Below the pieces are notes generated by a model. That model did not search any database and was not told where the DNA came from. It saw only the letters and a program-made list of their open reading frames with translations. From NCBI GenBank assembly GCA_016713325.1, contig JADJPJ010000014.1, positions 1 to 28,609 of the forward strand: a DNA stretch of 28,609 bases, read 5' to 3'. The DNA is from Candidatus Flexifilum affinis (GTDB taxonomy: Bacteria; Chloroflexota; Anaerolineae; Aggregatilineales; Phototrophicaceae). How positions within the stretch are numbered: the stretch's first letter is position 1; each line of letters begins with the position of its first letter. Positions 6,960 to 13,620 of the stretch are shown piece after piece. A program made the position numbers and the translations under genes.

Positions 6960-8387
6960 TCAGGCGTTGAGGTTCACGATGCGCTCGCGGATGTTCTTGA
7001 CGATCAGCTTGAGATGCGGGTCAGATTCCATATCTTCGAGCATCTTGTTGCAGGCGTGCAGCACCGTGCTGTGCGTCCGCCCAAAGGCGTCGCCGATCTG
7101 CGGCAGCAGGGCGGCGGTCATGTCGCGGGCCAGGTACATGGCCACCTGACGCGCCTGGTTGATCTTGCCGGTGCGGCTCTTGCCGGTGATCGCTTCCGTC
7201 GTCAGACCGTACTGCTGCGCCGTGACTTCCAGCACCCGCGTCAGGGTGACGTGTTCGCGCGGGCGGCGGTAGCCATCCAGAATGTCGGCGGTCATGTCGG
7301 AGGTGATCGCCCGGTGCGCCAGATGCTGAGTCGCCGCCACCTGGTTGAAGATGCCTTCGAGTTCGCGGACGTTCATCTTGGAACGCCCGGCGATCATCTC
7401 GAAGACCTGCGGGGCCAGCCGCACGCTGCGGTCCGACGCCCAGTTATGCAGGATGGCCAGACGGGTCTCGTAGCTCGGCGGCAGCACTTCCATCACCAGC
7501 CCTCCCTGGAAACGGGAGCGCAGGCGGTCTTCGAAGGGCTGAAGATCGCGCGGGGGGCGGTCGGAGGCGATGACGATCTGCTTGTTGTAGGTGGTGAGCG
7601 CGTTGAAGGTATGGAAGAACTCTTCCTGCGTGCTCTCTTTGCCGGCGATGAACTGGATGTCGTCGATCACCAGGACGTCGACCGAGCGGTAGCGGTCGCG
7701 GAAGACGGCCGTCGATTTGCTGCGAATCGAATCGACCAGGTCATTGGTGAACGCCTCCGACGGGACGTAGATCGTCCTCAGATGGCGCGCCTTGCATTCG
7801 TGGGCGATGGCTTGCAGGAGGTGAGTCTTTCCCAGCCCGACGCCGCCATAAACAAAAAAAGGATTGTAGACCCCGCCCGGCCGCTCCGCGACGGAGCGCG
7901 CAGCGGCGTAAATCATCTGGTTCTCGTTGCCGGGCACGAAGCGGTCGAAGTTGAAGCGGGGGTTGAGTTCGCTCTCCGGCAGTTCAGTGCGCGACGGACG
8001 GGTCAGGCGCTCGTGCAGGGGTACGGACGAATCAACGGAATCGCGCTGCTGCTCCAGCAGGCGGAAAAGCGGCGCGTCGGCACCGGGAATTTCCACCGGG
8101 GCGGGCGCGCTGAGGACAGGCTTGAAGATTTCGAAGCGCAGTTCGACCGGCGCGCCGTAGGTTTCGGCCAGGATGCGGCGTACGTTGCGATACAGACGGT
8201 GCTGAAGCATATCGCGCGCGTACGAATTCGCGACGCCGATGACGAAGATATCGCCTGACGTATCGCCTGACAAGCCGCTTTCTACATTTAATAGGACGGC
8301 GTCGCGCAGCCAGGTGTCATAGCTGGCTCGGTCGAGCTGAAGTTCAAGCTGCTGCGCGGCAGCGCTCCAGGCCTGTTGCGGATCCAA
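6960..8387 (-). CDS. dnaA: Chromosomal replication initiator protein DnaA
   Basis: DnaA is the AAA+ ATPase that binds origin boxes, opens the duplex and recruits the replicative helicase. I chose the TTG start at 8387 (475 aa), which puts the domain I pattern (AWSAAAQQLELQLDRASYDTW) at the usual distance from the N-terminus. The open frame extends to 8570 but that part is not DnaA-like. Domain I covers residues 1-85, a variable linker runs to about 140, and the AAA+ core has Walker A GGVGLGKT (181-188), Walker B VLVIDDIQF (238-246), sensor 1 IVIASDRPP (271-279), and sensor 2 in VRELEGIFNQVAA (340-352). The domain IV signature at 431-447 reads IGDAFGRTHSTVLHACN: one residue shorter than the common GGRDH form, with Thr where E. 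coli has Asp433. His, Ser/Thr and the minor-groove Arg (KSRTGK) are kept. No dnaN, rnpA or gyrB is adjacent. A promoter lies about 250 bp upstream of the start. Confidence 0.97.
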   Translation of the reverse strand: MDPQQAWSAAAQQLELQLDRASYDTWLRDAVLLNVESGLSGDTSGDIFVIGVANSYARDMLQHRLYRNVRRILAETYGAPVELRFEIFKPVLSAPAPVEIPGADAPLFRLLEQQRDSVDSSVPLHERLTRPSRTELPESELNPRFNFDRFVPGNENQMIYAAARSVAERPGGVYNPFFVYGGVGLGKTHLLQAIAHECKARHLRTIYVPSEAFTNDLVDSIRSKSTAVFRDRYRSVDVLVIDDIQFIAGKESTQEEFFHTFNALTTYNKQIVIASDRPPRDLQPFEDRLRSRFQGGLVMEVLPPSYETRLAILHNWASDRSVRLAPQVFEMIAGRSKMNVRELEGIFNQVAATQHLAHRAITSDMTADILDGYRRPREHVTLTRVLEVTAQQYGLTTEAITGKSRTGKINQARQVAMYLARDMTAALLPQIGDAFGRTHSTVLHACNKMLEDMESDPHLKLIVKNIRERIVNLNA

Positions 8388-8642
8388 GACGTTTTTCCCG
8401 ATCTGGTGTGATGTATTGAACGGCGCTGCCGCCCAACCCGGTCCAAAAAAAGGCAACACTAAACCCTCTGCGCGTCTTTGTGCGCAGGCACACCGAGGAA
8501 ACGATTGAATTGTGTGTTGAGTGTTCACGACTGACGCATTAGAGAGAGGCCAAAAGACTGCCTTTTTCAAGCCCGCTGCGGTGCAGTGGGCAAATTTGAA
8601 GATACGTCAGGAGCGCAGGATTTAGTCGCTTATGTACCCTTC

Positions 8643-8670
8643 AGTATAGCCGAATTGGCCCCCCGGACAA
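8643..8670 (-). promoter_or_regulatory. Candidate sigma-70-type promoter for dnaA
   Basis: The minus strand reads TTGTCC (8670-8665), a 16-bp spacer, then TATACT (8648-8643), scoring 4/6 and 5/6 against consensus. Transcription would start near 8636, leaving a leader of about 250 nt before the TTG start. It borders the TTGGGAT motif cluster, so initiator binding there could also control dnaA transcription. Confidence 0.5.
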
Positions 8671-8701
8671 CCATTTGCCTTAAAAATGGGAAATTTTAAG
8701 G

Positions 8702-8954
8702 TTGGGATATTTTCTGCACGAACCTGCAAAAACGCCGAAATACTTTTCACCCGGTCATCCCAAAACTAACAGCAGAATTGCCACGATCTTGGGATAACTT
8801 GGATTAAATTGGGAAATATTGGGATGGAATCAACATTACAGAGTGGGTACATGAAAATGGCGATCTTTTTTTTAACATTGGGATTCTTTTTTGCAGGACT
8901 TGGGATCTGCTTGTCACCCACCCGACAGATCAAAAAAACGAGCTTTTATCCCAA
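8702..8954. repeat. Cluster of seven exact TTGGGAT/ATCCCAA motifs
   Basis: Forward copies of TTGGGAT start at 8702, 8789, 8819, 8878 and 8900; inverted copies (ATCCCAA) lie at 8757-8763 and 8948-8954. TTGGGAA at 8809 and TTGGATT at 8799 are one-off variants. Chance expectation for a 7-mer on both strands in 253 bp is about 0.03. Two copies extend to TTGGGATAA, whose complement TTATCCCAA differs from the DnaA box TTATCCACA only by exchange of the bases at positions 7 and 8. Confidence 0.8.
8789..8828 (+). repeat. Four tandem 10-bp iteron-like units
   Basis: Units start at 8789, 8799, 8809 and 8819 with exactly 10-bp spacing: TTGGGATAAC, TTGGATTAAA, TTGGGAAATA, TTGGGATGGA. The consensus is TTGGGATAAA. 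Ten-bp phasing places all units on one face of the helix, as expected for cooperative binding of an initiator or repressor. Confidence 0.75.
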
Positions 8955-9021
8955 ACCGTCAGGAAGCGTTGTAAACTTTTACGAAAAATATCCAATTCAT
9001 GACGATCCACGTTATGATTGA
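8851..9021 (+). CDS. Doubtful small membrane protein ORF inside the candidate origin
   Basis: A 56-codon ORF begins at ATG 8851 with GAGTGGG about 4-10 nt upstream; in-frame earlier starts exist at 8824 (ATG) and 8809 (TTG). It encodes a single hydrophobic segment (MAIFFLTLGFFFAGLGICL) followed by a charged tail ending KYPIHDDPRYD. The composition is AT-rich and unlike the neighbouring genes, and TTGGGAT motifs lie within it. It may be a chance ORF in AT-rich origin DNA. A real single-pass membrane peptide is possible but unsupported by any family I know. Confidence 0.25.
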   Translation: MKMAIFFLTLGFFFAGLGICLSPTRQIKKTSFYPKPSGSVVNFYEKYPIHDDPRYD

Positions 9022-9096
9022 ATGGACGTATGTCATGAAACTGAGTAAAATTGCATACTGGTAGCCTCACAGTTACCCATAACGCCGGAGATACTG

Positions 9097-9449
9097 ATGA
9101 CCGACTATAACGTGCAAGCAAGATTCGATGACGATGAAGAGGCAAGCATTGTGGAGGAGAGCACGTACGTCAAAGACAAACCCGATATCATCAAGGTTTC
9201 CGCGAAGTCTCGCTCCACGGCGGTAGCAGGAGCCATCGCCGCCGTCATGCGGGAGCGCCGTTACGCTGAGGTCCAGGCCATTGGCGCAGGCGCCGTGAAT
9301 CAGGCCGTTAAAGCGCTGGCCATCGCGCGGACCTACCTCGAACAAGACAATATCGACCTGATGTGCACGCCTTTCTTCAGGAAGTGGACATCGAAGGCAA
9401 TGAACGCACTGCCGTTCGTTTTACCGTCGAGCCGCGCCCCACGCCGTAA
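9097..9449 (+). CDS. spoVS: SpoVS family protein (Alba superfamily), one frameshift near the 3' end
   Basis: The core matches SpoVS almost residue for residue: IIKVSAKSRSTAVAGAIAAV, then RRYAEVQAIGAGAVNQAVKA and ALAIARTYLEQDNIDL. SpoVS is a small Alba-fold protein that affects sporulation septation in Bacillus and also occurs in non-sporulating bacteria including Chloroflexota and Deinococcus-Thermus; nucleic-acid binding is inferred from the fold. The start has GGAG 7 nt upstream. After about residue 94 the frame breaks near 9378. Moving by one base restores a family-like ending, FLQEVDIEGNERTAVRFTVE, and a TAA at 9447-9449. The corrected length is about 117 aa, against 86 in Bacillus; the extra residues are an acidic N-terminal extension (RFDDDEEASIVEEST). 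The stop overlaps the start of the PHP gene, so the two are probably translated together. Confidence 0.85.
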
Positions 9450-10308
9450 TGTTCGACCATTATGGCGTCGACCTCCATGTGCACACCAGCGCCTCCGATG
9501 GGCAGTACACCCCATCGGAGGTTGTTGGGCTGGCGCACCAATTTAATGTTATTGCCATAACCGACCACGACACAACTGATGGAATTGCCGAGGCTCGAAC
9601 CGCTGCCGCTCGCCAGGGCATGCCGTTAATCCTCGCCGGGATCGAAATCAGCACCGCCGAAGATCGCGGCGATGTTCACATGTTGGGCTACCTGGTGGAC
9701 ATCGAGGATGCCTGGTTTCAGGAGTCGCTGGCCGAATTTCGCGAGGCGCGGTTTCGCCGCGGCCAGCAGATGGTCGAGAAGCTCTCCCGGCTGGGCGTCG
9801 AACTGAAGTGGTCGCGCGTCGAGCAGATCGCGACGTCCGGCGAGAAGACCGGCGCGGTCGGGCGGCCGCATATCGCGCGGGCCATGGTCGAAGCCGGCTA
9901 TGTGGACACCGTGCGCGAGGCCTTCGACCGCTATATCGGCACCCATGCCCCGGCGTATGTCGCGCGCAAGCGCCTGCCCCGGAAGAATCGGTGGAGATGA
10001 TCCACCGGGCGGGCGGTGTGGCCGTGTTCGCGCATCCCGGCCTGGTGCCGGAGTGGCAGACGATATTGGCTAAGCTGGTGGCTGCCGGGCTGGATGGCGT
10101 GGAAGTCAACCACCTGTCGAACAATGAGGCCGCCCGGCTGGAACTGCGCGCGCTGGCGGCGAAGTACGGCCTGATCATGACCGGCGGGTCAGACTTTCAC
10201 GGGCCGGTCATCAAGCCGGGCAACTCCCTGGGCTGCATTTCTCCGCCCGAGGGCGCCGTGTACGCCCTGCACGAGCGCGCCAGACGCTACGCCAAATCCT
10301 CGCCGTAG
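9449..10308 (+). CDS. PHP-domain phosphoesterase (TrpH/YciV, RNase AM-like), one frameshift
   Basis: PHP proteins of this subfamily are metal-dependent phosphoesterases; the E. coli member YciV (RNase AM) acts as a 5'-3' exoribonuclease and 3',5'-nucleotide bisphosphate phosphatase. The metal-ligand motifs are all visible: DLHVHTSASDG (residues 8-18), ITDHDTTDG, AGIEISTAE, GRPHIARAMVEAGY, a His in AVFAHPGLVPEW, and GGSDFHG near the C-terminus. The corrected length of about 286 aa is typical. A base is missing near 9973-9979, since PEESVEMIHRAGGVAVFAHP is read in the next frame. The start ATG overlaps the spoVS stop as TAATG, indicating translational coupling. The exact substrate is inferred only from the subfamily. 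Confidence 0.85.
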
Positions 10309-10514
10309 ATTACATTACACCGCCTCAAATCTTGCGATACGTAGGGGCGGTTCGCGAGATTCTGTTGAAAAAGGGTCAGCGCTGCTCGAAACCGCGCTGA
10401 TGTCGCCGATGCGCCGCCGGAGAATGGAATTCTCCGGCTACCCTCCAAAGACGCGAGAAACCGACTGAAGTCGGTTGCCCCAGGAAGCGCTCATCCCTTG
10501 AATTCCGCTGGAGG

Positions 10515-10752: not shown

Positions 10753-11787
10753 TTACCTCACCAGCCCCGGATAATCGAGCAGCATCACCTCCAGCGCCAG
10801 CCGCAGATTGATGTTCGTGCTCAACCGCTCGATCATGCGGTTGGTGGCGTTCATGGCCGTCAGCGCATCCTCCGGCGAGAGCGCTCCGGCCAGTTGATTC
10901 ACCGCCTCCTCGCGGTCGATGTTGGCCAATTCCACCGGCGCATCATGGCAGCGCAGCAGCACGTCGCGCCAGAACGACTGCCACAGCGCCAGCAGCGTGC
11001 CCAGGGCCGTTTTATCCCTGTCTTTTCCCAACTCCGTAGCCAGGGCGAAGCGGCCGGCCCGGTTGGCGTTCAGGACGTCCATCAGCAGATCCAGCCCGTC
11101 GCTGCGCCGCGCCAGCGAGTCCGGGTCTTGCAGCGCGCGAATGGCCCAGCCAATTCGCCCGCCGCTCAGGTGCGCCAGCAGCGCCGCCGTGTCGGCATCC
11201 GCGCCGTAGCGCTCGCGCAGCACGGCCTGCACCGTTTCGACGGAGGCGGGCCGCAGATGCAGTAGCTGCGAGCGGCTGGTGATCGTCGGCAGGATCTGCT
11301 CGATCGACCGGGCCAGCAGGATCAGAATGGCGTGCGGGGCCGGTTCCTCCAGCGTCTTGAGCAGGGCATCCTGGGCTTGCGGCCGCACCTGATCGAAATC
11401 GGGGAAGATGCCGAAACGAAAACGGCCCTCGAAGGGCTTGAGTGACAGCCGCCCGATCTGCGCGCGAATGCTGTCGATGGTCAGCGTCGTCTCGTCTTCG
11501 CCGCGCTCGGTATAGAGCAGATCCGGATGGTTGCCGCTGGCGATCCGCCGGCAGGATGGACACTCGCCGCACGGACGCTGGTCCACGTCGGGTTGGGTGC
11601 AGAGCAGGGCCGCCGCGAAGGCGCGGGCCAGCGTGCTCTTGCCGACGGACTCCGCGCCGACGATCAGGTAGGCGTGGCGCACCCGGTTGTGCCGGATGGT
11701 CTGGCGCAGATGCTCGACCGCCCAGTCGTGGCCGAACACCCCCCAGAGTGACTCGGCGGGGTCAGATGAAGGGGTTCGCTCGCTCAC
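10753..11787 (-). CDS. holB: DNA polymerase III delta-prime subunit (clamp loader)
   Basis: HolB is part of the clamp-loader pentamer that opens the sliding clamp onto primed DNA. The GTG at 11787 is chosen because GAGGAG lies about 9 nt upstream and the family-like sequence begins soon after (ESLWGVFGHDWAVEHLRQTI). Visible features in the 344 aa are a Walker A GAESVGKS (44-51), a four-Cys zinc module (Cys63, 73, 76, 79; PCGECPSC), DQVRPQAQDALLKTLEEP, and TITSRSQLLHLRP at the SRC-motif position (Ser-Arg-Ser here rather than Ser-Arg-Cys). The C-terminal third is the helical collar domain. The open frame is continuous with the upstream protease only because of a frameshift in that gene; the two are separate genes about 160 bp apart on the same strand. 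Confidence 0.92.
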   Translation of the reverse strand: MSERTPSSDPAESLWGVFGHDWAVEHLRQTIRHNRVRHAYLIVGAESVGKSTLARAFAAALLCTQPDVDQRPCGECPSCRRIASGNHPDLLYTERGEDETTLTIDSIRAQIGRLSLKPFEGRFRFGIFPDFDQVRPQAQDALLKTLEEPAPHAILILLARSIEQILPTITSRSQLLHLRPASVETVQAVLRERYGADADTAALLAHLSGGRIGWAIRALQDPDSLARRSDGLDLLMDVLNANRAGRFALATELGKDRDKTALGTLLALWQSFWRDVLLRCHDAPVELANIDREEAVNQLAGALSPEDALTAMNATNRMIERLSTNINLRLALEVMLLDYPGLVR

Positions 11788-11948
11788 TACGGAGTCTCCT
11801 CTAAAATGTAATGTCTCGTGGGGTGGCATCGCCCCTACCCCATGACAGATCGGTCGCAGGGACGAGGCAGGCCTAGTCCGTTGACCATGCCCATAACAAC
11901 CATTCGCCGATCGGGCAACCCTTGGGTTGTCTCTACGAACGCCGCGCA

Positions 11949-13620
11949 TCACGGCACAACCTCGAAGACCGCCATAGGCGACCACGGACTTTCGCCCTGC
12001 GCCGTGCTCCACGCCTGAATCCACCAGCGGTGCGGGCCGGGGTTGAGCGGGAAGGGCGCCGGGTAGAATACACAGTGACGCGTCGCAGTACTCGACCGGG
12101 TTCAGCCACACGTTGAGGATCTTCGTGCCGTCGGCGTGGCTCAGCCAGAAATAATACATCTCGGCGTCCGGCACGACCGCCCAGGTGAAGGCCGGCGTCG
12201 TTCCCGTCACCATGCGCTCGATCGGACCGGTCTGCACCGGCGTGGCCGGCAGGGCCAGGACGCTCTGCACGGCGGCCAGGGCATCGACCCGTGGATACTC
12301 GAAGGCGCTGCGCGGGTCGTCGATCGTCACGCCGGTCGTCTTCAGCGTGTTCTCGATGGCATCCGGCGACAGGGCCGGCCGCGCCTGAAGCATCAGCGCG
12401 GCGATCCCGGCCGCCGTCGGCGAGGCCTGCGAAGTGCCCACGTAGCGGACTGTGCCGCCGTTCAGACCCGTGCTGGTGATATACGCGCCGGGCGCCACCA
12501 GATCGACCGCGCCGCCGCCGTTGGTGAAGCACGCCAGTCGGTTGATGCCGGTCGGGTCGTCGAAGCAGGACGGCCAGCTTCCGCCGAACTTCGTCCGCCA
12601 CGATCCGCTGTCCGGCTCGCGCCCCAGGTCGCTGTCGTACGTCGCTCCCACGGCGATCGCTTTGGTGATGCAGGCCGGCGCGGCGACCAGGTACGGTTCG
12701 CCCTGGTTGCCGGTGGCGGCGAAGGTCGGCACGCCCCAGAAGTCGCGCAGGATGGCGATGGCGCTGGCCATGGCCGGCTGCTGCGCATCGCAGGCGGGGG
12801 CATAGGCCGTGAACGTCCCCAGGCTCATGTTGATCACGTCCACCTGGAGCGTCTCCTGGTTGGCGATGATCCAGTCCAGCGCCGCCGCCCAGTCCGAAAG
12901 CCAGCCGGAGCCAAAACCGTCCAGAACGCGCACCGCGACGATCTGCGCAGCCGGCGCAAAGCCGATCGGCGCCACTGTCCCGTTGGACGTAATGATGCCG
13001 GTGACGTTGGTGCCGTGGCCGTTTTCGTCTTCGGCGCTGATCCCGGTGTTGGTATCGGCCGGCGGGCAGGAACCCAGCGCCGGCGTGCCCCCGCCGGTGA
13101 AGCAGACCTGCGCGATCAGATCGTCGGCCAGATCGGGGTGGTCGGTGTCGATGCCACTGTCCAGCACGGCCACGCGGACACTCGCACCGGTCAGCCCGTA
13201 CTGATTGTGCACCTGCGCCGCACCGACCGCGGGGACGCTCTCCGTCGTGGCGATGCCGCCCGGCTCGTCGGCCTGGATGTAGACCACGCGCGGGTCCGCC
13301 GCCAGAGCCGTCAGCGCGCCGGCGTCGATTTCCGCGACCAAACCGGGGATCTGGCTGAAGCGCCGCAGCACCACCCCGCCCGCCGCCGACAGCCGGTCGA
13401 TTACCGGCGCCTGCGCGGCGGCGACCGCCTCGCGTCGTTCGCCCGGCGGTGCATCGATCGACGCCGGGTCCGCCAGGGTGACGATCACACGGATCCGTTC
13501 GTTCTCAGCCAGGGCGGTGAAGGTGTTGGGATCGATCGTGTTCGCCTGCGCGTCCAATCTGACCGCCAGGATCAGAGCGAGAAGGGTGACGATCAGGGTT
13601 GTGCGCAGCGAGTGGACCAT
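11949..13620 (-). CDS. Secreted subtilisin-like serine protease (S8) with I9 propeptide, one frameshift near the 3' end
   Basis: This is a secreted S8 endopeptidase. Residues 1-26 form a signal peptide (LIVTLLALILAVRLDAQA). Residues 42-118 are an inhibitor-I9-type propeptide, which assists folding and is cleaved. The catalytic triad is Asp154 (VAVLDSGID), His202 (NGHGT) and Ser397 (GTSQASP), with the oxyanion Asn304 in ATGNQG. After residue 460 comes a small beta-sandwich-like domain (TPAFTWAVVPDAEMYYFWL). An extra base near 12066-12069 shifts the frame; correcting it gives PAPFPLNPGPHRWWIQAW and a tail ending VFEVVP before a TGA at 11951-11949, for about 556 aa. Uncorrected, the frame runs on into holB and gives a false 955-residue fusion. 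It has its own promoter and lies downstream of the sugar ABC operon, which has no evident functional link. Confidence 0.92.

Follow-up and report, generated by a model that had tools for sequence, protein, structure and literature searches.

A conserved TTGGGAT repeat cluster upstream of dnaA in Candidatus Flexifilum affinis: a probable operator array of a non-DnaA regulator

The region shared by the divergent genes dnaA and spoVS in Candidatus Flexifilum affinis contains a dense cluster of TTGGGAT repeats. We think it on balance probable that this cluster is a conserved operator array for a putative non-DnaA regulator of dnaA and/or spoVS, and that the chromosomal origin lies elsewhere. We favor an operator for a protein other than DnaA because the motif is distributed differently from a second, DnaA-box-like family (TTWTNNACAG), its copies are phased at about 10.5 bp, and tandem pairs of it are kept in genomes without a detectable dnaA. 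Positions below refer to the window, the whole stretch of 28,609 nucleotides that was analyzed.

Results

The repeat cluster between dnaA and spoVS

Seven exact copies of TTGGGAT or its complement ATCCCAA are found between positions 8702 and 8954 (8702, 8789, 8819, 8878 and 8900 on the plus strand, 8757 and 8948 on the minus strand), just as the original prediction had counted them, and only two further copies occur elsewhere in the window. Shuffling the whole window gives a mean of 2.76 copies per 28.6 kb, or about 0.024 per 253 bp, in agreement with the predicted chance expectation near 0.03. The intergenic stretch is AT-rich (43% GC versus 63% for the whole window); in 5000 first-order Markov simulations of it TTGGGAT reached at most 3 copies, and any 7-mer at all reached at least seven copies in 37. 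The features of the region are as follows.

6960 to 8387, minus strand: dnaA, with a probable TTG start at 8387
8678 to 8701, no strand: palindrome CCTTAAAA-N8-TTTTAAGG, with 8-bp arms at 8678-8685 and 8694-8701, abutting the first TTGGGAT
8702 to 8708, plus strand: TTGGGAT copy 1, abutting the palindrome; kept in L114, one substitution in L115
8757 to 8763, minus strand: TTGGGAT copy 2; kept in L114 and L115
8789 to 8828, plus strand: four-unit 10-bp tandem array, with exact TTGGGAT at 8789-8795 and 8819-8825 and degenerate units at 8799 and 8809
8878 to 8884, plus strand: TTGGGAT with TTTTAACA before it (8870-8877), a composite that recurs in the clade; TTGGGAT kept in L114 and L115
8900 to 8906, plus strand: TTGGGAT, absent at this position in L114 and L115
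8948 to 8954, minus strand: TTGGGAT within TTGGGATAA (equal to TTATCCCAA on the plus strand); the TTGGGAT position is kept in L114 and L115
9097 to 9546, plus strand: spoVS, the divergent neighbor across the shared intergenic region (PF04232, 1.8e-28)

The 10-bp array is real, but its second unit, TTGGATT, is two bases off TTGGGAT (or lacks one G) and is not the single-base variant that had been described. The inverted repeat predicted as 7 bp at 8679-8700 is present and abuts the first copy, with arms that are one base longer. Two copies read TTATCCCAA (8789-8797 and 8946-8954), as noted before, and this sequence differs from TTATCCACA at two positions, bases 7 and 8 being changed. No TTATCCACA-type box (TTWTNCACA) occurs within one mismatch in 8400-9120, which upholds the earlier statement on standard DnaA boxes, and the same region has no TTWTNNACAG although it is AT-rich and carries a repeat cluster. 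The palindrome half-site ACCTTAAA is spread more widely upstream of dnaA than TTGGGAT; among 40 loci from other Anaerolineae, 17 have it. An RNA element was considered for 8300-9200 and rejected, as Rfam gave no match at the gathering threshold.

Counted from the probable dnaA start, the TTG at 8387, the cluster is some 315-567 bp upstream; from the spoVS start at 9097 it is 143-395 bp upstream. Beyond the cluster, the spoVS and PHP ORFs (9097-10308 and 10753-13620) appear frameshifted, possibly through sequencing errors, and one ORF of 955 aa fuses a subtilase to a DNA polymerase III delta subunit domain, where a sequencing error is also possible. A different sequence, TTTTCAACAG, occurs at 10362, 10661 and 26702 (three copies versus 0.43 expected by shuffling).

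The cluster is conserved and helically phased in one clade

Among the best 120 of 7997 DnaA proteins, those with a source name are mostly from Anaerolineae or Chloroflexi/Chloroflexota, and two named sources are Phototrophicaceae and Aggregatilineales. Our comparison sample comprised 396 genomes of the class and 154 of the order; the DnaAs of two order members, G450 and G447, are 84% and 83% identical to that of the window. We built a tree of 131 DnaA proteins from domains I-III alone, and it puts the window DnaA in a clade of 63 rows (SH-aLRT 99). Sixty-two loci of this clade, the window included, extend 300 bp or more upstream of dnaA; ATCCCAA is present at least once in 57 and at least twice in 54, so that conservation in relatives, a check proposed with the original prediction, is borne out. 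Altogether these 62 regions hold 212 copies versus 11 of a reversed 7-mer control and not one TTWTCCACA; the five loci with no ATCCCAA at dnaA are L157-L160 and L176. Outside the clade only 12 copies were found in 68 loci, with two or more copies only in L191 and L197.

When the window is aligned with its two nearest relatives, the boxes at 8757, 8789, 8878 and 8948 are kept in both, the box at 8702 in one, and those at 8819 and 8900 in neither. The palindrome is conspicuous in this alignment, as are array units 1-3, which are nearly invariant in L114 and L115; unit 4 (8819-8828) is not kept. Across the clade, spacings between ATCCCAA copies on the same strand upstream of dnaA peak at 10-11, 22, 32-33, 41-43 and 52-53 bp, which are multiples of the helical turn with a phase of about 10.5 bp. 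OmpR/PhoB-type response regulators, CtrA and MtrA for example, use direct-repeat operators with tandem half-sites about 10-11 bp apart, and the TTGGGAT spacing counts show direct repeats at that distance.

The origin seems to lie upstream of a GAF histidine kinase gene

The chromosome of the relative G328 is a single contig of 5,631,885 bp that begins at dnaA. Where sampled, its GC skew and TA skew have negative values to either side of dnaA, become positive at 838-845 kb and reverse again between 3.62 and 3.75 Mb. At finer scale the GC skew is -0.053 at 820-838 kb, -0.005 at 838-844.5 kb and +0.037 at 845.1-852 kb. The flip is 0.84 Mb from dnaA, and there is none at dnaA. Within the zone of the flip, at 844,545-845,033, eight ATCCCAA and TTATGAACAG-type boxes lie upstream of a GAF histidine kinase gene. 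The same kinase adjoins a similar box cluster and dnaN in G430, a genome whose skew shows a weak trend only. Whether the skew minimum falls at the dnaA cluster was a check proposed with the original prediction; in G328, the one closed relative sampled, the dnaA region is not at the minimum, which falls at this other box cluster. The skew evidence comes from one closed chromosome of the clade, and we infer that it carries over to the window's genome. In these relatives the origin seems to lie elsewhere than dnaA, at the following site.

Upstream of the GAF histidine kinase gene, candidate origin: loci L313-L332, L334, L337-L340, L342, L344, L347, L349, L354, L359 and L363

At least four TTWTNNACAG boxes are present at 25 of the 28 clade kinase loci. 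None was found at L333, L335 and L336, the last being unreadable upstream because it starts at a contig end. The two nearest relatives (L324 and L327) have six boxes each, five of them TTWTGAACAG, plus one ATCCCAA. A second kinase search covered 34 genomes and gave 30 loci, of which 23 were used (L349 from the clade and 22 from outside); at least four TTWTNNACA occur in seven, and 16 have no cluster, at least four of these (L341, L343, L348 and L350) having less than 1 kb upstream. The two motifs are distributed in opposite ways: in the same 24 clade genomes there are 89 ATCCCAA versus 5 TTWTNNACAG upstream of dnaA, and 77 versus 187 at the putative origin. Extra matches to DnaA domain I only were noted at L481, L482 (G328), L483 (G440), L484 (G428) and L485 (G431); by eye, L483-L485 have a ParA-like ORF in the same stretch, which suggests mobile-element replication genes.

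Position 6 of the TTWTNNACAG box varies with DnaA residue 433

The domain IV sequence FGRTHSTV of the window DnaA corresponds to FGGRDHTTV in B. subtilis-type and Photobacterium DnaAs, and the position of E. coli Asp433 is non-Asp in all 63 clade DnaAs. In PMC8235120, Asp433 is described as contacting base 7 of the box. We compared box position 6 with residue 433 at the 32 kinase loci with at least four boxes. C is found in 18 of the 19 boxes of the three genomes with Asp433 versus 23 of 279 in the 29 genomes without it (Fisher p 1e-16, with boxes counted as independent, which they are not), and it is the majority base in 3/3 and 1/29 genomes, respectively. Asp/non-Asp changes on the DnaA tree number at least 3. 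A further 108 Asp-type loci give 435 matches upstream of dnaA, and 288 of these have C at position 6. Where DnaA lacks Asp433, the altered DnaA-like boxes at the candidate origin are TTWTGAACAG, TTWTCTACAG and TTWTCGACAG. On the simplest reading of these sequences, TTWTNNACAG would be the DnaA box of the order, altered at position 6 as Asp433 was lost. The lineage seems to use altered DnaA boxes, as had been proposed, but at the other site and in the form TTWTNNACAG, not that of TTATCCCAA.

A switch of the box to TTATCCCAA itself, co-varying with residue 433, once looked likely because Asp433 reportedly contacts base 7 and TTATCCCAA changes bases 7 and 8. This idea was dropped after the skew-defined origin showed the second box family, and it is also undercut by the presence of the motif in genomes without detectable dnaA. 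Upstream of dnaA, 81 non-Asp loci of the order have 129 CAA-ended boxes, with ACA endings outside the top twelve; residues for this count were set by a regular expression with some false matches (QTD, RGP, ESA and three hyphens), and an alignment column was used later.

Tandem pairs occur elsewhere and persist without a detectable dnaA

We searched whole genomes for direct pairs, defined as two ATCCCAA with a gap of 2-15 bases, with the reversed pattern as control. Thirteen genomes have 89 pairs versus 3 controls. In the window's subclade G450, G447 and G452 have one each, and G456, G453 and G454 have 6, 9 and 8. Tandem pairs are not quite limited to the clade, as two Asp-type genomes outside it have 4 (G425) and 1 (G417) versus 0 controls. 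In the 800 bp upstream of gyrA, for which 27 of 30 loci were used (25 from the clade and two from outside), ATCCCAA occurs at least twice in 13 clade loci, once in two and not at all in ten; neither of the two outside loci has a copy. All 13 loci with two or more copies belong to sister groups outside the window's own subclade, whose seven gyrA loci have one copy in G450 and G447 and none in G446, G456, G452, G453 and G451. A wider regulon is sparsely represented in the window's own subclade, where the origin locus of the two nearest relatives also has just one ATCCCAA, and this weakens the regulon view.

A match to PF08299, the DnaA domain IV family, is absent in 26 order genomes (G321, G346, G472-G479, G481-G483, G485, G487, G489-G492, G494, G193, G264, G307, G363, G378 and G393) and present in five listed neighbors; the placement of the 26 near these five is taken from listing order, and values for kinship and completeness are not given. 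The pattern looks like a lineage-wide loss of dnaA. Loss of dnaA is described for cyanobacteria (PMC7198777). A search of twenty of these 26 genomes for tandem pairs gave 68 versus 1 control. A DnaA box would be expected to depend on a DnaA in the genome, and the tandem motif does not seem to do so. With no PF08299 match and the pairs kept, the binder in these genomes would be a protein other than DnaA, unless an unrecognized DnaA persists. Apart from gyrA and the origin locus, no coherent function emerges from the contexts of 30 tandem sites (L371-L400) and 20 further regions. Seven proteins were scanned against Pfam, six near these sites or regions and one beside the G430 origin; three have no match, and the others are two ArsR-type regulators, one response regulator-GGDEF and one metallo-beta-lactamase-fold protein.

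Discussion

A putative regulator and the alternatives to it

We propose that an operator array of the form WTATCCCAA / TTGGGATAW sits in the divergent dnaA-spoVS promoter region, where a putative non-DnaA regulator may occupy it cooperatively with one protein for each helical turn. This regulator would probably adjust how strongly dnaA and/or spoVS is transcribed. The same motif occurs at further sites in clade genomes, among them what is probably the true origin and also gyrA in the sister groups of the window's subclade. DnaA, for its part, would bind the TTWTNNACAG boxes at the origin upstream of the GAF histidine kinase gene. A two-component system is an attractive guess because a histidine kinase adjoins the origin; this GAF kinase is the known two-component candidate there, and the one response regulator scanned near a site has a GGDEF output. 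Of the two functions originally suggested for the cluster, a strong regulatory site for dnaA stands, and self-regulation by DnaA is disfavored because the tandem motif is kept where dnaA is not detectable.

Several points speak against a non-DnaA operator: the motif begins TTAT like a DnaA box, it occurs in the origin, and it marks a DnaA clade without Asp433. The five clade loci with no copy at dnaA and the few pairs outside the clade count against it as well. In the main rival reading, TTATCCCAA belongs to another class of DnaA box, comparable to the weak ATP-DnaA boxes that have C at position 7, through which an altered DnaA autoregulates dnaA and which it also uses in the origin. This is a real but minor possibility. 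It would account for the TTAT start, for the presence of the motif at both dnaA and the origin, and for clade DnaAs having lost the residue that reportedly contacts base 7 (PMC8235120). Helical phasing of the boxes would suit DnaA equally, and a regulon that is thin beyond dnaA in the window's subclade is in its favor as well. It fits poorly with the tandem pairs kept by 20 genomes in which dnaA is not detectable, with other order lineages that lack Asp433 and mostly lack the motif, and with a TTGGGAT distribution opposite to that of TTWTNNACAG. Ten PMC papers contain TTATCCCAA or TTGGGATAA, and none of them is on DnaA boxes as judged by titles and the starts of abstracts; among the titles listed for DnaA boxes or oriC in Chloroflexi/Anaerolineae, none is on origins of this group.

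That the sites are operators of the divergent spoVS and not of dnaA we regard as improbable. The cluster is closer to spoVS than to dnaA, and a divergent spoVS is present in 33 of the 53 order loci with at least two copies and more than 1400 bp upstream. The remaining 20, however, have the motif but no spoVS that could be detected in 1500 bp, and spoVS is still there in 18 of the 32 order loci that have at most one copy. Even less probable is that the dnaA-adjacent cluster is the chromosomal origin, with TTATCCCAA as the altered DnaA box. The cluster is dense in boxes, AT-rich and next to dnaA, with a conserved architecture, but this reading is left unsupported because the skew minimum is 0.84 Mb away in one closed relative and the homologous kinase site, with its DnaA-box-like cluster in 25 of 28 clade loci, exists in the two nearest relatives. 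MraZ operators consist of TGGGN repeats with a similar 10-bp period, but an MraZ operator is largely refuted: no mraZ match was found in eight genomes that have the motif at dnaA (G450, G447, G446, G456, G453, G451, G454 and G452), and only one of 14 mraZ upstream regions has TTGGGAT, in a single copy (the L403 locus is incomplete).

Returning to a non-DnaA regulator, we tentatively offer a broader idea that we would not call likely. An undescribed cell-cycle regulator of this Chloroflexota order may bind TTGGGATAA arrays at dnaA and the origin, and also at gyrA in some of the clade; it may have outlived DnaA in a whole sub-lineage that would have lost dnaA and perhaps assumed some of the control of initiation there, and the DnaA box would have switched at position 6 with the loss of Asp433. 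A second motif common to dnaA and the origin, and kept without dnaA, points to an uncharacterized replication-linked regulator and offers a concrete lead to that protein.

Comparison with known systems

The array resembles OmpR/PhoB-type operators, such as those of CtrA and MtrA, in its tandem half-sites about 10-11 bp apart and in a link to control of dnaA and the origin. Its sequence is unlike the CtrA/MtrA-type consensuses, and the system here is known from its sites alone. The R-type DnaA box, TTWTNCACA, is like TTATCCCAA a 9-mer that starts from TTAT and is clustered at dnaA and the origin. It ends in NCACA, however, whereas the motif described here ends in CCCAA and its pairs are kept in genomes without detectable dnaA; the TTWTNNACAG family, which is separate, is a better match for DnaA. 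For E. coli and, as KMRTCCCSM, for C. crescentus, weak ATP-DnaA boxes that carry C at position 7 are reported (PMC8235120). They share the C at position 7 with TTATCCCAA; the motif here differs in being strict, dense and clade-wide, with no TTWTCCACA neighbors at dnaA. A precedent for lineage-specific boxes is given by the Epsilonproteobacteria, whose DnaA boxes have the core TTCAC (PMC5043019). In that account position 5 is a fixed T and CAC is kept, whereas here it is position 6 of the origin box that changes, and Asp433 is lost.
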